From Flavobacteriales bacterium (GTDB lineage Bacteria > Bacteroidota > Bacteroidia > Flavobacteriales > Flavobacteriaceae): DNA of 64,000 nucleotides. This document shows positions 41,931 through 63,796 of this stretch, one piece after another. Below the pieces are notes generated by a model that was not told the DNA's origin, ran no database searches, and saw nothing but the letters and a program-made list of their open reading frames with translations. The stretch lies in contig WTJI01000039.1 in NCBI GenBank assembly GCA_011524905.1, positions 1 through 64,000 of the forward strand, given 5' to 3'. Position 1 is the stretch's first letter; each line of letters starts with the position of its first letter. The position numbers and the translations under genes were made by a program.

Positions 41931-43733
41931 TTAGCCTTTCGCCGCTTGTCTCTTACGTTCGTTTTCATCTAAAAAGACTTTTCGCAAACGCAAGAAATTA
42001 GGAGTAACTTCGACATATTCATCACCTTGGATGTATTCCAATGCTTCCTCAAGGGAGAATTTTATTGGGGGGGCCAACTTTACTTTATCGTCAGATCCAG
42101 CGGCACGCACATTGGATAATTTTTTAGTTTTAGTCACATTGACAACAAGATCGTCACCACGAGAATTTTCACCAATTACCTGTCCAGTATAGACATCTTC
42201 ATTTGGTGCCACAAAAAATTTACCGCGATCTTGTAATTTATCTAAGGAATAGGGAATGGCTTGACCATTTTCCATAGAAATCATTGAGCCATTGATGCGC
42301 CCTGGGATATCGCCCCTAAGCGGTGCAAATTCTTTAAAGCGGTGATTCATAATAGCTTCACCTGCAGTAGCAGTGAGGAGTTGATTCCGCAGGCCAATGA
42401 TACCACGAGAGGGGATGATAAACTCGCACACCATCCGTTCACCTTTGGGCGTCATACTCAACATTTCACCTTTGCGGAGTGTTACCATTTCAATAGCTTT
42501 TCCAGATACGGCCTCTGGTAAATCAATGGTCAATTCCTCGATAGGTTCGTGTTTCTTTCCGTCAATTTCTTTGATGATTACTTGTGGCTGTCCAATCTGT
42601 AATTCATAGCCCTCTCTACGCATGGTTTCGATAAGTACGGATAAATGTAAGACTCCCCGACCGTAAACGATAAATTTATCGGCTGAGTTGGTTTCTTCCA
42701 AACGCATAGCAAGATTGCGTTCCAATTCTTTTTCCAAGCGGTCTTTGATGTGACGGGATGTAACATACTTTCCATCTTTACCAAAGAAGGGTGAATCGTT
42801 AATTGTAAAAAGCATGCTCATGGTGGGTTCATCGATGGCAATGGTAGGTAGCGCTTCCGGTGCTTCGGCATCGGCAATGGTATCGCCAATTTCAAACGCC
42901 TCCAAACCAATCACAGCACAGATATCACCTGCCTGAACCGAATCGACTTTCACCCGCCCCAAACCATCAAAAAGATTGAGCTCTTTGATGCGTTGCTTCT
43001 GGCATTCTCCATGTCGGTTGACTAGTGTTACGGGCATCCCTGCTTTTAAATGACCGCGTTGTAAACGACCAATCGCAATGCGCCCTGTGTAGGCTGAAAA
43101 ATCAAGAGAAGTGATGAGCATTTGAGGTGTACCTTCCGCTACTTTAGGGCTTGGTACGTGTTCTAAAACCATATCAAGGAGTGGAGCTACAGAATCAGTT
43201 TGTTCTTTCCAATCCTCACTCATCCAATTGTTCTTGGCTGAACCATAGACGGTAGGAAAATCCAATTGCCATTCTTCGGCACCCAATTCGAACATCAAAT
43301 CAAATACAGCTTCATGAACCACATCGGGCGTACAATTCTCTTTGTCAACTTTATTGACCACCACAATAGGCTTCAATTTTAGATCAATGGCCTTCTGCAA
43401 AACAAAACGTGTCTGCGGCATAGGTCCCTCAAAGGCATCAACCAATAGCAATACGCCATCAGCCATGTTGAGTACTCTTTCTACTTCCCCACCAAAATCG
43501 GCGTGACCAGGGGTATCGATAATATTGATTTTGGTGTTTTTATAAGTAACCGATATGTTTTTAGATAAGATCGTTATACCACGTTCCCGTTCCAAATCGT
43601 TATTGTCAAGGATCAACTCACCCTTATTTTCATTGGTACGAAAAAGCGCACAATGGTGCATAATTTTATCTACCAATGTGGTTTTCCCGTGATCAACGTG
43701 GGCAATGATGGCGATGTTACGAATTGCTTCCAT
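41931..43733 (-). CDS. typA: Ribosome-binding GTPase TypA/BipA
   Basis: 600-residue translational GTPase linked to 50S assembly and stress. G motifs: [10 protein letters not shown], effector-region [19 protein letters not shown] and NKVDKENC. The EF-G-like domains and the BipA-specific C-terminal part ([22 protein letters not shown]) are complete. A TATCTTTG box lies 16 bases before the ATG. Confidence 0.97.
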
Positions 43734-56333: not shown

Positions 56334-59300
56334 ATGATTCAAAGAATTTTGTTCCTTACCCTTGTTTTGGTGAGCACCACTGTTTTAGGTCAAAATACCT
56401 GTCCAACAAATACTGCTTTTTTTGATCCCGTTACAGCCACTACAGATGCGCCTGTTTCAGTAAGTTTTGACCTTACAAACTTCTTTGCCGATGCCGATGG
56501 TGACGAACTTAGTTTTACTGCCACAAGCAATGACGATAACATTGCAAGTGCTTCATTAGATGGCAGGACATTGACTATCGACACAAAAAGCCAAGATGGT
56601 ACCACTTTTGTAATTTTAACAGCCTCCGATGGTGACGCAAATTGTTTTTCTGGTGCTGAAGTATTTGTGTCTGTTTTACCTGCCATTGACTTGACATTTC
56701 CCGAGGATTTGACAAACCCCGATTCTAACAATGATGATTCTGCCGACAGTAGTACTGATCAAGATATTACATTCCCAGTTGAAGAATCAGGTACTAATGA
56801 CTCCGCTTCGGCTGACTGTCCTGTAATTGCCAACCAACCTGGATCAATTGAACAGGATATTAGTCAAACACTATCCGTTGAGTACAACCTAAATGAATAT
56901 TTTTCTGATCCCAATGGGAATGTGCTTAGCTATAGTTTTGAAACTTTTGGTGACGATATCCTCACTATTAATTTAGATGGCAATTCATTAAAAATTGAAT
57001 CAAATGGAAATGCAGGTTTTGCAACACTATTTGTAGATGCAAGCAATGGGAACGAAGGCTGTTTTTCCTCAATTTCTATCAATGTATTCATTACAGACCC
57101 CAATGACTCTTCGAGCGTGGACGTCTCTGTAGATGATTTATTGCCTGATACAACAACGCCACCAGAAGACTTAATTACAACACCAGATGATACTTTTACA
57201 CCACAAAGCTGTCCAACTGTTTCTGGTGAATTAGGTACGTACGAAAAAACATTGGAAGAAGGTTTGTTCTTAGAGTTCAACCTGAATGATTATTTCAGTG
57301 ACCCAGATGGGGCGCCGTTAACATATTCTTATGATGTTTTTGGAGATAATGTAGTGGATGTAATCATTGATGGGGCTGTTTTAAAAATAGCTTCCAATGG
57401 AAACCCTGGATTTGCTACAATCTTTATTGATGCTAACAATGGGAATGAAGGCTGTTTTTCTTCTACTTCACTTAATGTGTTTTTTATTGATCCCACCAAT
57501 GAAAATATTCCTGATATTTCCATCGATGACTTAATTTCGAATGTTCCTGATCCGCAAGACCTCCCTTTTGGATCCGATGATTCACAAATTGATTTCTCCC
57601 AATGTCCCTTTGTCATCACTGGAATAGAACCCATAATTACTTCGCCTGATGAACCAAAACAAGAAGTGTACGATCTGAAGTTTTTCTTTGGTGACCCCAA
57701 TGATAAAGAATTAACTTTTGAGATAAATAATGCCAATTCCGATATTGTTAACGTAGCATTAGAGGGAAGTGTTTTGACCATTAATACACTTGATAGTACG
57801 GGAGAAAGTTTTATCGAAATCATTGCGACGAATGGCGAAGCTGGCTGTGAAACCTACATCGGATTGTTTGTATTAGTAGCTACTGAAGAGGAAATACCAC
57901 CTCTAACTGAACTTGAAACAACCTTTGATTTATCATCTGAACTTGAAGTCAACCTGTGTCCTGAACCTGTCAAATTCTTTGAACCTATTTCCATCCCCGT
58001 AGGAGAAGTTCAAAACTTTACTTTTGATTTAGATGAGTATTTTTCTGACCCCGAAGGCGACGCATTTGAGTTTGATATTTTTAATGCCAACCCAGAAGTG
58101 GCCTACAGTTCTTTATTCGGTAGTAACCTTACTATTAGCTTGGGTGCCGAAAGTGGCTTTGGATTTATTGTAATTAATGTTGTTGGAGGCGGAAATAATT
58201 GTATTGTAAGTCTAGAAATCCCTTTGGAAGTTACCCAAAGTGAAGATTTTGTTTCCGATTGTGTACCCCTGCTTACAGCCACACCAGAAGTATCTCTTCA
58301 ACTTGACCAGCCCGAAACAATCATAAATTTAGAAGAGTACTTAAATATTGCTGAAGACCGTGTGTTCACCGTTGATATTTTAGGTACTGAAAACGAATAC
58401 ATAGAAGCCAGTTTGTTTGGTTTTAACTTAGTAATTAGTGTTAAAGAAATTGGTGCAGGAGATAGTGCTGTTTATTTGCAAATAAAGGAAGAAACATCGG
58501 GTTGTATGGAAGTCGCTCCTATTTATATTCCCATCGAAGATCCCCTTGGACTTCAAGACACAAATTGCCCTAACCTTAAATTGGAATTCCCCTATTTGGT
58601 GACATTGCAAAAAGGTGAAAGTATTTCATTTGCATACAGCGATTATTTTGCCAATATCGATACTGAGGGAATTGAATTTATTGGAGCGGTTGCTTTTGAA
58701 AGTTTTGCTACTGCAAGTGTAGAAGAAGGCGTTATGACGATTGTGGCCAAAGATCAAGTTGGATTTTCACCAGCAGCTATAGGAGTAACTGATGCCTTTG
58801 GATTATGTGAAATCTACCTCCCGTTTGAATTGCAAATACTTGGAGAAGGGGTCACAGAAAATAGTTGTCCAGAATTGACCGAATCGCTTCCCAACATCGA
58901 AATGAACGACACTGAAGCGGAAGTTAGTATCGACTTAAACACCTATTTTCAAGATCCTGATGGAGATCCTTTGTTTTACGGTGCATTCATTGACTCAAAC
59001 GAATTTGTAGATTTTAACCTCATTGACAATCAGCTAACGCTCTATCTGAAGCAAAATACTGCAGCTGTTGTCACCCTTGAAATTGGTGCTTCCGATGCCT
59101 TTGAAGATTGCTTCACTACAAGTATTCTCGAAATAATAATTGGAACTACTGAAGAAGAAGTGACCAATAATTGCCCAGAAGTTGTGGGAACGATAGACGC
59201 GATTAGTTTTGGAAATGATGAACTTTTGAAAAATATCTCTCTCGAAAGCTTGTTTACCGATGCCGATGGAGATACCCTTACATTAGAGGTTGTTTCTGAC

Positions 59301-61418
59301 AATCCTGAAATAATCAATGCCGAAATACAGGATAATACTTTAACAGTATTCGCCACTCCAGGAAAAACTGGCAATGCTGTATTAGTCGTGTCTGCCAAAG
59401 ACCAAGACCCCTACTGTCAATCAACCTATAATGTGTCAGTAAATATTCCATCCAACGAGCCCGTGGTGCAAAATACATGTCCAACCATTACCAGTGGCAT
59501 TCCTCCAATGCGGGTGGCGAAAAACAGTTCGGATCGGATCATACTGCTTCCTGAACTTTACAGTGACGATGCTCCTGAACTCGTTTACTACTCAACGGTT
59601 AGTTACGATAACAGTGTGGTTACTGCTAATATCGAAGGGAGTTACCTGGTTCTCAACTTCTCTGACACCAATACGGGTAATGCCTTAGTAGAATTAAATA
59701 TTATTGACGGTGGATCAGGTTGTATTCAATACTTAGAATTTCAAGTAGAAATTTTTGAAGAAATTGAAAATCTCCCCCCCTACTTTGAATCGCAAAGTTT
59801 TTCAGTTGAAGAAAATGATTCCGATGAAAATGCAGGTGATTTTGATAAATTTTTAGGTAAAATCACTGCAATTGACCCTGAGGGAAGCCCTGTAAACCTT
59901 TCCATCACTAACGGAAATAATCAAGGTATTTTTGAGCTTCGTGGTGATCAGCTTTTCCTTGTTGGGATTTTAGATTTTGAAACGCAAGAAGTTCACGAGT
60001 TAGAAATAACCGCTTCTGATGGCAATAAATCCAATACGAATGTTGTCAAGGTATTTGTAGAAAATGTAGCAAATGCCAGTATTCAAAAGGGTTTTACATT
60101 ACAGGTATATGATATTGATAATGAAAACACTACAAGTAAATCCAATGCATACAAAAGATTTTTAAATCCCGTTTTACAAAAAACCAGAAAAGGTGTTGGT
60201 AAATGGAAGGTTAGAAAAAATATCACCGGAGGGGCAGACGCTGACAAGTTTAAAATAGAACGAGCAGTCGAACAAAAAGATGGAGAAATCCTTGAGGATC
60301 AGCTTGTATTTGCTATTAACCCAGACTTCGAAAATCCATCAGATGCCAACGGTGATAATATTTATGAAGTTGATATTGAGATAATAAATGAGCAAGATGG
60401 TCAATCACTCATCCCAGTTATTGTAAGTCAAAATGCTATAGTTGTTCCTGAAAATGAACCCAAAGCCTTGAATGTTGAATCCATTCCTGCAACAGTACTT
60501 CAAGACACTGATGGAGACGGAATACAAGATGTTATCGATAACAGCCCTTTACAATTCAACCCTGGTCAAGAAGACAGTGACGGAGATGGCGTTGGAGACG
60601 TATCCGATGATGCTGATCAAGATGGTGTGTGGGATCCATTTGATATTTGTCCTGACACGCCTTATGGTACTCCTGTGAATTTAGATGGCTGTCCCATCTT
60701 CATTTTACCTCCCAATAATTTCACCATTTCAAAAATTGAAAAATGTATCGGTGATAACGAAATCCGTCTGGCAGTTGAAGATACAAGCCACGCTTATAAA
60801 CTAGATTTAACGGGGGAAATAAACAGAACCCAAACCCTACGGGAAGAAAGTGTTAGTTTTACTGGACTTAATGGAGGTGATTATCAACTCTGTATAACAG
60901 TCATTGGTGTTGATGAGGAAGAATTCAAACGATGCTTTGATATATCGATTGCCGAACCTGAACCCCTAACGGTGTATAGCAAAAGTGGCACCACTAAAAA
61001 ACAAGTAAGTTTTGATCTATCAGGCGGCAATACATATAATATTACGCACAATGGCTTCACCAAGCAAATTAATAAAGATCAAGTTACCATTGATTTGGCC
61101 AAAGGGCTCAATACTGTTAGAATAGATACAGGTATTGAATGTCAGGGTGTTTTTGAGCAACAGTATTTTAATTCTGCCGTGGTTATGATGGCTCCCAATC
61201 CAGCTCGTGACCTTACTAGCATTTTTGTTGGTGGTGATGACCCTCAAGTTAACATCACTGTGTATAATACACTTGGAGGTATTCTTTATCAAACTAAAGT
61301 TCGCATACCTCAAGACAGACGTATCACCCTGCCAACTGCGTCGCTACCCGTGGGCAGCTATTACGTCAAAGTTGAAGGACAGACAACCCAACAGAATCTA
61401 GCACTCATCAAAGAATAA
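56334..61418 (+). CDS. Giant T9SS type A substrate with ten Cys-pair Ig/cadherin-like repeats
   Basis: 1694 residues, signal peptide MIQRILFLTLVLVSTTVLGQ. Ten tandem units start with a Cys-Pro-like motif at residues 23, 162, 293, 424, 542, 643, 745, 845, 947 and 1049. Each has a second cysteine 81 residues later (80 in unit 7) and a core like FDLNDYFSDPDGDPLTYS. A cadherin-like domain (about 1145-1245), a TSP3 segment DTDGDGIQDVIDNSPLQFNPGQEDSDGDGVGD (near 1390) and a type A C-terminal domain (APNPARDLTSIFVGG...LPVGSYYVKVEGQ...LALIKE) follow. Only 4 bases separate it from the next gene. An extracellular or surface role is inferred. Confidence 0.88.
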   Translation: MIQRILFLTLVLVSTTVLGQNTCPTNTAFFDPVTATTDAPVSVSFDLTNFFADADGDELSFTATSNDDNIASASLDGRTLTIDTKSQDGTTFVILTASDGDANCFSGAEVFVSVLPAIDLTFPEDLTNPDSNNDDSADSSTDQDITFPVEESGTNDSASADCPVIANQPGSIEQDISQTLSVEYNLNEYFSDPNGNVLSYSFETFGDDILTINLDGNSLKIESNGNAGFATLFVDASNGNEGCFSSISINVFITDPNDSSSVDVSVDDLLPDTTTPPEDLITTPDDTFTPQSCPTVSGELGTYEKTLEEGLFLEFNLNDYFSDPDGAPLTYSYDVFGDNVVDVIIDGAVLKIASNGNPGFATIFIDANNGNEGCFSSTSLNVFFIDPTNENIPDISIDDLISNVPDPQDLPFGSDDSQIDFSQCPFVITGIEPIITSPDEPKQEVYDLKFFFGDPNDKELTFEINNANSDIVNVALEGSVLTINTLDSTGESFIEIIATNGEAGCETYIGLFVLVATEEEIPPLTELETTFDLSSELEVNLCPEPVKFFEPISIPVGEVQNFTFDLDEYFSDPEGDAFEFDIFNANPEVAYSSLFGSNLTISLGAESGFGFIVINVVGGGNNCIVSLEIPLEVTQSEDFVSDCVPLLTATPEVSLQLDQPETIINLEEYLNIAEDRVFTVDILGTENEYIEASLFGFNLVISVKEIGAGDSAVYLQIKEETSGCMEVAPIYIPIEDPLGLQDTNCPNLKLEFPYLVTLQKGESISFAYSDYFANIDTEGIEFIGAVAFESFATASVEEGVMTIVAKDQVGFSPAAIGVTDAFGLCEIYLPFELQILGEGVTENSCPELTESLPNIEMNDTEAEVSIDLNTYFQDPDGDPLFYGAFIDSNEFVDFNLIDNQLTLYLKQNTAAVVTLEIGASDAFEDCFTTSILEIIIGTTEEEVTNNCPEVVGTIDAISFGNDELLKNISLESLFTDADGDTLTLEVVSDNPEIINAEIQDNTLTVFATPGKTGNAVLVVSAKDQDPYCQSTYNVSVNIPSNEPVVQNTCPTITSGIPPMRVAKNSSDRIILLPELYSDDAPELVYYSTVSYDNSVVTANIEGSYLVLNFSDTNTGNALVELNIIDGGSGCIQYLEFQVEIFEEIENLPPYFESQSFSVEENDSDENAGDFDKFLGKITAIDPEGSPVNLSITNGNNQGIFELRGDQLFLVGILDFETQEVHELEITASDGNKSNTNVVKVFVENVANASIQKGFTLQVYDIDNENTTSKSNAYKRFLNPVLQKTRKGVGKWKVRKNITGGADADKFKIERAVEQKDGEILEDQLVFAINPDFENPSDANGDNIYEVDIEIINEQDGQSLIPVIVSQNAIVVPENEPKALNVESIPATVLQDTDGDGIQDVIDNSPLQFNPGQEDSDGDGVGDVSDDADQDGVWDPFDICPDTPYGTPVNLDGCPIFILPPNNFTISKIEKCIGDNEIRLAVEDTSHAYKLDLTGEINRTQTLREESVSFTGLNGGDYQLCITVIGVDEEEFKRCFDISIAEPEPLTVYSKSGTTKKQVSFDLSGGNTYNITHNGFTKQINKDQVTIDLAKGLNTVRIDTGIECQGVFEQQYFNSAVVMMAPNPARDLTSIFVGGDDPQVNITVYNTLGGILYQTKVRIPQDRRITLPTASLPVGSYYVKVEGQTTQQNLALIKE
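56391..59765 (+). repeat. Ten-unit protein repeat array within the T9SS type A gene
   Basis: Unit lengths measured from Cys to Cys are 139, 131, 131, 118, 101, 102, 100, 102 and 102 residues. The extra length in the first four comes from Asp/Ser-rich linkers. Units 2 and 3 are the most alike at DNA level. Confidence 0.85.
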
Positions 61419-61422
61419 GTCT

Positions 61423-62112
61423 ATGAAAAAAATCTATCTATATTATTTTCTACTGACACTCATTGTTGTGCATTGTAGTCAGGAACCTGAACCAGTCCCA
61501 GCGGGTATTGCTACATTAATTGCGCCTGCCAACAATGAAGCTTGTTTAGATGGTACTCCCGTTAGCGATACACAGAGTTCTGTTGATTTTCAATGGAATG
61601 CTGCAACCAATGCTATGAATTATAAATTGATGGTGACCAATTTACTTACCAATCAAACGCAAAACTTTTCATCCGTCACCCCCAACCTGCAGGTTACATT
61701 GGTGCACCAAACACCTTATCAGTGGCAGGTAGAAGCTATGGGTGAACCAGAAACCCTTCCTACCTCAAGTGAAAGCTGGAAATTTTACTTAGCAGCAGAA
61801 GCTCAGACCAACTATGCCCCATTTCCTCCTCAATTGCTGTTACCAGAATCTGCTTCCACTGTCACACCAATCAATGGCTTAATCAACTTAAGTTGGAGTG
61901 CTTCAGACCTTGACAATGATATCGAACGCTTTGAAATCTATTTAGATAATAATGATGGGTCAACCAAATTAAAAGATCAAAGCTACGCTGGTGAAACTAC
62001 AACGATAGAGGTAGATGTTGAAAGCAATCAAATTTACTACTGGCAAATTGTAGCCATAGATAGCTCTGGGAACAGAAGTGATTCTGGCATCTATAACTTC
62101 CGTACACAATAA
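61423..62112 (+). CDS. Probable lipoprotein with two fibronectin-III-like domains
   Basis: 229 residues. The N terminus MKKIYLYYFLLTLIVVHC places a cysteine after a hydrophobic stretch (VVHC, an acceptable but not canonical lipobox), followed by acidic SQEPEPVP. Two Fn3-like units follow: residues about 27-125 (VDFQWNAATNAMNYKLMVTN, YQWQVEAMG) and about 130-229 (INLSWSASDLDNDIERFEIYLD, YYWQIVAIDSSGNRS). It is co-oriented and 4 bases after the giant type A protein, so it is likely a membrane-anchored partner. Function not known. Confidence 0.8.
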   Translation: MKKIYLYYFLLTLIVVHCSQEPEPVPAGIATLIAPANNEACLDGTPVSDTQSSVDFQWNAATNAMNYKLMVTNLLTNQTQNFSSVTPNLQVTLVHQTPYQWQVEAMGEPETLPTSSESWKFYLAAEAQTNYAPFPPQLLLPESASTVTPINGLINLSWSASDLDNDIERFEIYLDNNDGSTKLKDQSYAGETTTIEVDVESNQIYYWQIVAIDSSGNRSDSGIYNFRTQ

Positions 62113-62114
62113 AC

Positions 62115-62276
62115 TTGCAGACAAAAAGCTGTTACCGCTGTAAAAAAAGTGACCGTGTCATGTTCCGAATCAAAATAGACCAAACCAAGCATTGGTTTTT
62201 TTGCTGCCAATCCTGCACGGAAACAGAAAAAAAAACAAATTCATTTTATCGTTATGGGGGGACTTGGAAAGGCTAA
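62115..62276 (+). CDS. Small zinc-ribbon protein, TTG start
   Basis: 53 residues, absent from the ORF track because it lacks an early ATG. Frame: CYRCKK with cysteines 6 and 9, a beta-like KIDQTKHWFFCCQSC with cysteines 30/31 and 34, and a C terminus YRYGGTWKG. Paired CxxC motifs suggest one bound zinc. From memory, similar short proteins ending in YGGTWK occur in other flavobacteria, which supports a real gene. It begins 2 bases after the Fn3 lipoprotein stop. Function unknown. Confidence 0.65.
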   Translation: MQTKSCYRCKKSDRVMFRIKIDQTKHWFFCCQSCTETEKKTNSFYRYGGTWKG

Positions 62277-62314
62277 TTTGTTCCCATAGTTCGTCAAAAA
62301 ATAGGGGATTACAA

Positions 62315-62322
62315 TATCTTTG
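62315..62322 (+). promoter_or_regulatory. -7 box upstream of the PLP decarboxylase
   Basis: TATCTTTG matches TAnnTTTG and lies 19 bases before ATG 62342. This supports that start over the upstream track start at 62192. No matching TTG at the right distance. Confidence 0.45.
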
Positions 62323-62341
62323 TGGGAAAGATAGTTTCGCT

Positions 62342-63796
62342 ATGAATGAAAGAAAAACAGCACAGCTGCAAGATGCACTCCCTAAATTGGTCGATGTACT
62401 GGAAAATTATGTTTCATCAAGCCAAAAAAAGGAAACTCCTGTTTTAAAGCAACATGCACCAGAACATATTCTTGGTGCCCTGCATACCGATCAAATTTTA
62501 GAAAATGGTTTTCAGTCCCCCGAAGATATAACGGATTTTGTTTCAACCTACCTAGCGCATACGAATCACCTCCACCATCCGCGTTATATGGGACACCAAG
62601 TGGCTGTTCCACATTCACTTTCAGGTATTCCAGATTGGATTCATGGTACAGCTAATAATCCCTCATCATTATATGAAATGGGACCAGTAGGTGGTGCACT
62701 AGAAGCTTACATGATTAATTGGATGTTAGAAAAATTGGGCTGGTTTCGTGGCCAATCCTATGCCGACTTCACCCAATATCCCGAAAACGGTAGCGGTATT
62801 CTTACCCATGGTGGATCGGTTGCTAATCTGACAGCCCTATCTGCCGCCCGAGCAGCCATTGCTCCCGAAGCGTGGACCGATGGCAACCCTACTGATTTAG
62901 TGATTATTGGCCCAAGTAGTTCGCACTATTCCATAGGAAGAGCAATTTCCATAATGGGAATGGGGAAAAATGCTTATGTCGCTGCTGCTGTAGATAATAA
63001 CGAAGTCATCCAAATTTCAGATCTCCAAAGGGTATATAAGGAACAAAAAGAACAAGGAAAACGTATAATGGCTGTTGTCGCCAATGCCTGTGCAACTTCC
63101 ACAGGGCTTTATGACCCCTTAGATGAAATCGCTGACTTCTGTCAAGAAAATAAGCTTTGGTTTCACGTTGACGGTGCCCATGGAGCTGTTGCACTGTTAT
63201 CGGATCGTGAAAAACAAAAAATGAAAGGGGCAGAAAAAGCCGATTCCCTTATTTGGGATGCACATAAAATGATGCGCGTCCCTGCCCTTTGTACGGCAGT
63301 ACTGTTCAAAAATCAGTTCCACCAATACAATAACTTTAAGCAAAAAGGGAGCTATGTCTTTCACAGCACTGAAGTTATTGGAATGGATTCAATGCCCTAC
63401 ACCGTAGAGTGTACTAAATCCGCCTTAGGAACTAAGTTATTTTGGACATTTGCACTGGGGGGAGAGAAAAACATGACACTGTACATTGAAAAATGTTACC
63501 AATTAGCAGAGGATTTTTACCATCTATTAAACCAACAAAAAGACTTTGAAGTTCCCTATTTTCCGCAATCGAACATACTTTGCTTCCGTTTCACTGGTGG
63601 GCCTGCATCAGATGACTTTCAGCTAAAATTACGTTACACCTTAATTGATACTGGAAATTTTTATATTACATCGTGCGAAATGAACAACAAACGCTACCTA
63701 CGGGTCGTTCTAATTCATCCTGATACAGCAGTGGAAGATCTGAAAGCTTTACTGAACAATATCAGGGATGTAGCCCAAAACTTAATTCAGGATTAG
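62342..63796 (+). CDS. PLP-dependent group II decarboxylase
   Basis: 484 residues from ATG 62342; the 50 extra residues of the track ORF overlap the zinc-ribbon gene and look non-coding. Fold type I decarboxylase: NPSSLYEMGPVGGALEAYMINWM, GILTHGGSVANLTALSAARAA, VDGAHGAVALL and the PLP lysine Lys309 in IWDAHKMMRVP. The family contains glutamate, diaminobutyrate, aromatic amino acid and sulfinate decarboxylases, and the substrate is not clear. Cytoplasmic. Confidence 0.9.
   Translation: MNERKTAQLQDALPKLVDVLENYVSSSQKKETPVLKQHAPEHILGALHTDQILENGFQSPEDITDFVSTYLAHTNHLHHPRYMGHQVAVPHSLSGIPDWIHGTANNPSSLYEMGPVGGALEAYMINWMLEKLGWFRGQSYADFTQYPENGSGILTHGGSVANLTALSAARAAIAPEAWTDGNPTDLVIIGPSSSHYSIGRAISIMGMGKNAYVAAAVDNNEVIQISDLQRVYKEQKEQGKRIMAVVANACATSTGLYDPLDEIADFCQENKLWFHVDGAHGAVALLSDREKQKMKGAEKADSLIWDAHKMMRVPALCTAVLFKNQFHQYNNFKQKGSYVFHSTEVIGMDSMPYTVECTKSALGTKLFWTFALGGEKNMTLYIEKCYQLAEDFYHLLNQQKDFEVPYFPQSNILCFRFTGGPASDDFQLKLRYTLIDTGNFYITSCEMNNKRYLRVVLIHPDTAVEDLKALLNNIRDVAQNLIQD

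Follow-up and report, generated by a model that had tools for sequence, protein, structure and literature searches.

A gene of 53 codons, located at positions 62115-62276 on the forward strand of the window, the 64,000-nucleotide stretch of Flavobacteriales contig WTJI01000039.1 analyzed here, is almost certainly real and conserved and, as judged from comparison with homologous sequences, under purifying selection. According to a structure prediction its product is very probably a single-zinc treble-clef finger in which cysteines 6, 9, 31 and 34 serve as ligands, and it belongs to a family that lacks a model in the libraries used for naming bacterial proteins. From its conserved residues and a cyanobacterial gene pair with a PIN-TRAM protein we tentatively propose that it is a small, zinc-binding, RNA-associated accessory protein. 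Taken as a whole, an explanation that combines the conserved gene, the treble clef and the RNA-associated accessory role has in our judgment an even chance of being correct. A gene of 53 codons is easily skipped, yet the family to which this one belongs is under strong purifying selection and is found in Cyanobacteria down to genomes of Prochlorococcus size. With a family model and one experiment in a tractable cyanobacterium, many small proteins that now go unnamed would receive a family name, and a concrete starting hypothesis for the family's role is provided by its pairing with the PIN-TRAM gene.

The reading frame consists of a TTG start, 52 further codons and a TAA stop, and its translation is MQTKSCYRCKKSDRVMFRIKIDQTKHWFFCCQSCTETEKKTNSFYRYGGTWKG. 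An in-frame TAA at 62094-62096 (forward strand), seven codons 5' of the TTG, bounds the open frame on its 5' side, and between this stop and the first cysteine the TTG is the sole common start codon. As the initial annotation had proposed, the 53-residue product carries a CxxC motif at residues 6-9, a C30-C31-x-x-C34 motif and a YGGTWKG tail at residues 47-53, and the gene fits neatly between two others. On the forward strand, the first zinc pair, C6-x-x-C9, a putative zinc knuckle assigned from an alignment of 64 sequences, is encoded at 62130-62141, while the second pair, C31-x-x-C34, at 62205-62216 and the C-terminal YRYGGTWKG at 62247-62273 were assigned from the alignment and an AlphaFold2 model. 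Upstream, a gene for a lipoprotein-like protein with a weak Fn3 match (61423-62112, forward strand) ends 2 nt before the small gene. Note that this gene itself starts 4 nt past another one, at 56334-61418, that encodes a secreted cadherin-like/TSP3 protein of 1694 residues with a weak match to a T9SS sorting tail, and that the pair also occurs in the same-genus genome G003. Downstream, 65 nt separate the end of the small gene from the ATG at 62342 of a gene for a PLP-dependent decarboxylase of 484 residues (62342-63796, forward strand). The list of open reading frames contains a longer, TTG-initiated version of the latter at 62192-63796 that overlaps the small gene, an extension already held to be wrong in the initial annotation. 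The decarboxylases of the same-genus genomes G001 and G003 align, from close to their own N termini onward, with the 484-residue protein starting at 62342, and as a clean protein runs from this position the longer frame is, judging from these sequences, an artefact of choosing the first TTG. A search of Rfam over the locus found no structured RNA.

Orthologues of 53 codons with 47-53% identity are present in both G001 and G003 at the same site, 5' of the decarboxylase gene, and the homologous start codon is ATG in one and GTG in the other. The upstream lipoprotein gene and the 2-nt gap are retained in G003, while in G001 the upstream gene differs. Among close homologues, pN/pS mostly ranges from 0.02 to 0.2. 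The start codons of 81 non-redundant family members, inferred by a simple rule, comprise 61 ATG, 12 TTG and 8 GTG, so that a TTG start is not unusual in this family. The initial annotation had named a lack of conservation of the cysteine pairs and the frame in related genomes as the observation that would speak against the gene. Both were found to be conserved, and with orthologues at the same site, 216 relatives and low pN/pS the proposed gene is upheld.

Thirteen residues are invariant in the 64-sequence alignment, namely C6, C9, R18, W27, C31, C34, Y45, Y47, G48, G49, T50, W51 and K52, and C30 is not conserved. The protein shows the pattern that defines the family, a CxxC followed by YR or FR in the middle of the domain, W-x-[FL], a second CxxC and Y-x-YGGT[WR]K. 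Members from pico-cyanobacteria end in YGGTRK, and matches from the profile search likewise carry Y[KTVAQS]YGGT[WR]K. Note that the invariance of YRYGGTWK is partly built in, as the same phrase was the key of the large contig scan, which for this reason also under-counts members that lack it. The AlphaFold2 model, calculated from the 64-sequence alignment with a pLDDT of 94, predicts strands at residues 15-20 and 28-30, a helix at 32-41 and a further strand at 46-52. It contains the two CxxC-type half-sites of a treble clef, C6/C9 and C31/C34, the second of which is placed at the N terminus of the helix, after a beta hairpin, and the four cysteines would be expected to bind zinc. In a zinc ribbon, both cysteine pairs are located on knuckles between strands. 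As the second pair in the model heads a helix and a strand then follows, the predicted fold is a treble clef, and a zinc ribbon of the RPB9/TFIIS type, the class to which the initial annotation had assigned the protein, is rejected on the basis of the model, in which helix 32-41 begins at the second pair. A Foldseek search against the PDB ranked ZZ and KDM6 GATA-like domains first, with weak scores throughout (E > 0.1, TM ~0.5), and lower in the list, again with weak scores, returned ribosomal proteins that were taken as L24e type.

The distribution of the family was followed through a collection of genome contigs, where a scan for the YRYGGTWK pattern, confirmed by tblastn, yielded the 216 relatives. 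The initial annotation had directed the search to Bacteroidetes; relatives were indeed found there, but this scope was too narrow, and the family is present in Bacteroidota, Cyanobacteria and some Proteobacteria and reaches Methylophilaceae and Nevskia, among others. In profile searches, 22 of the 400 genomes covered from the host's taxonomic family, the Flavobacteriaceae, contained a member, as did 8 of 396 in a phylum sample. In the cyanobacterial class of Oculatella 83 of 194 genomes were positive, always with a single copy, and the family of a Methylophilaceae genome gave 25 positives out of 150, some with two copies. Cyanobacterial carriers include genomes of 1.6-1.7 Mb that we judge from their size and gene content to be Prochlorococcus-like. 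One cyanobacterial copy (L179) has an in-frame TGA within the domain and is possibly a decayed gene or the result of a sequencing error. Carriers in the host's taxonomic family have small genomes, with a median of approximately 2.0 Mb versus approximately 3.3 Mb for 20 listed non-carriers, a part of all non-carriers, in a rough comparison.

With 56 columns for 113 rows, few forks of the phylogenetic tree are resolved. The Methylophilaceae sequences are placed among those of Bacteroidota in this weakly resolved tree, which suggests horizontal transfer between the two groups. A second family member, 45% identical to the one described here, is found after typA on a further contig of the same assembly (C55, 5.4 kb), and the tree places this copy (loci L008 and L188) and the window copy in different branches of the family. 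The assembly contains two typA (BipA) genes, the one on C55 being 88% identical to that at 41937-43328 of the window, which is not followed by a zinc gene. The presence of two typA genes suggests that a different, related organism may be the source of contig C55, and we therefore do not claim two copies in one organism.

The neighbours of the family vary by clade across loci, and within clades synteny is stable, with one context, for example, common to about 12 genomes. In 16 of the 36 cyanobacterial genomes inspected an RNase-like gene with PIN and TRAM domains (Pfam, 2.6e-10 and 1.5e-5, respectively) immediately precedes the family member in the same orientation, the gap usually being tens of bases (pairs at L016, L181, L184-L187, L134, L138, L140-L145, L147-L149 and L151). 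In two related cyanobacterial genomes (L182, L183), a divergent family member is instead immediately preceded by a gene for a DUF2805 protein. In three genomes that we judge from their gene content to be marine-Synechococcus-like (L171-L173), the domain forms the C terminus of a DUF924 protein (Pfam, 3e-49). Genes near the Bacteroidota copies, named by eye, include RNase R-like ones at L018, L062 and L103, a TypA-like one at L008, RnpA-like ones at L027 and L032 and, two genes away at 12 loci of one clade, an RNase G-like one.

The proposed RNA-associated role draws on basic and aromatic positions that do not vary, on the cyanobacterial gene pair and, in Bacteroidota, on the nearby RNase R-, TypA- and RNase G-like genes. 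Four cysteines (6, 9, 31 and 34) would hold one zinc ion in a treble-clef finger to which the C-terminal YRYGGTWK would add a further strand, and the basic and aromatic residues K4, R18, W27, Y45, Y47, W51 and K52 would contact RNA or a partner from the ribonucleases or the ribosome. The protein would be cytoplasmic and stabilized by zinc, and its gene would act on its own, outside the decarboxylase pathway, and be freely gained and lost among genomes. Note that the link to RNA rests mainly on the gene pair of one phylum, with diverse neighbours elsewhere. A more specific version, in which the family, with its members of 50-60 residues in Bacteroidota, Cyanobacteria and Methylophilaceae, provides a dedicated cofactor of the PIN-TRAM ribonuclease and of other RNA-handling machines in other lineages, is unlikely, but if true it would mean that bacterial RNA turnover has a small-protein regulator of a new kind.

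The ligands of treble clefs range from proteins and lipids to DNA and RNA, and both ZZ domains and the zinc-binding domain of ClpX contact partner proteins. Just as open as the RNA-associated role, and held equally tentatively, is a zinc finger that binds protein instead of nucleic acid and contacts its partner as a small adaptor or as a regulator. The best Foldseek matches in the PDB are protein-binding domains, the ZZ domains of p300 and p62 and the KDM6 GATA-like domain, and the DUF924 fusion in the three marine-Synechococcus-like genomes is an arrangement that a partner-recruiting module might show. However, the structural matches score weakly and the treble-clef fold serves many different functions, and DUF924 was not found in the 49 Flavobacteriaceae genomes tested, carriers of the small gene included, which rules it out as a general partner.

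That the protein works with the adjacent PLP-dependent decarboxylase, as its regulator or assembly factor, is considerably less probable. Within the genus, three genomes carry the small gene, and in each of them the decarboxylase gene follows it directly on the 3' side; neither of the two was found in a further same-genus genome, G002 (97% complete). Among the loci examined, however, this adjacency is confined to these three, all from this genus, and the other neighbours differ by clade, so that a decarboxylase-specific role is unlikely. The -7 element of Bacteroidota promoters has the consensus TAnnTTTG, and a match to it, TATCTTTG at 62315-62322 (forward strand), is located in the gap before the decarboxylase gene. 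A corresponding match exists in G001 but not in G003, so that a separate decarboxylase promoter is hinted at in two of the three genomes; the element is to be taken as suggestive, and a scan of the locus for promoters and terminators gave no signal exceeding chance.

A phage- or plasmid-derived anti-restriction protein of the Lar-like type, or another zinc protein of mobile elements, is very improbable. The distribution of the family is patchy, and 5 of 64 members show weak Lar-like matches (best 2.3e-4 for PHROG 599 and 8e-3 for TIGR03655), but these do not add up to a consistent profile match and look like common CxxC spacing. In addition, synteny is stable inside clades, and the search of viral contigs, phages and plasmids returned no credible family match, the one partial phage match having E = 0.2. 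A chance open frame, as its shortness and TTG start might suggest, is practically ruled out, since the frame and the position of its start are conserved across phyla together with the cysteines and the tail, and since pN/pS indicates strong purifying selection.

With respect to known systems, Pfam-A, NCBIfam, PHROGs and PADLOC yielded no fitting family, the matches being weak and scattered, neither exceeding a curated cut-off nor recurring consistently among members, and the literature searched contained no mention of YGGTWK and none of DUF924. The zinc ribbons of RPB9 and TFIIS share the CxxC...CxxC arrangement and an aromatic residue preceding the second pair, and profile matches of this type are weak (E ~0.14; PF01096, best 0.0025); the difference lies in the second pair, which heads a helix in the predicted structure of the present protein. 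NblD, a cyanobacterial protein of 66 residues that acts on phycobilisomes (PMC7760959), is comparable by description as a small and long-unannotated protein of Cyanobacteria, but the family studied here also occurs in Bacteroidota, which lack phycobilisomes. Haloarchaeal zinc-finger micro-proteins such as HVO_2753 and HVO_0758, with fewer than 70 residues and two CxxC-type pairs (PMC10716476, PMC11241148), are likewise very small and stand-alone. Their C(P)XCG motifs are, however, mostly absent from the present family, which has the YGGTWK tail, and 1 of 20 members, a cyanobacterial one, matches NF041909 weakly (0.0034). In its predicted architecture of a knuckle, a hairpin and a second CxxC heading a helix, the family resembles the treble clefs of ZZ, KDM6 GATA-like and L24e-type proteins, but it shows no significant sequence match to any of these and is set apart from them by a C-terminal YxYGGTWK strand of its own.
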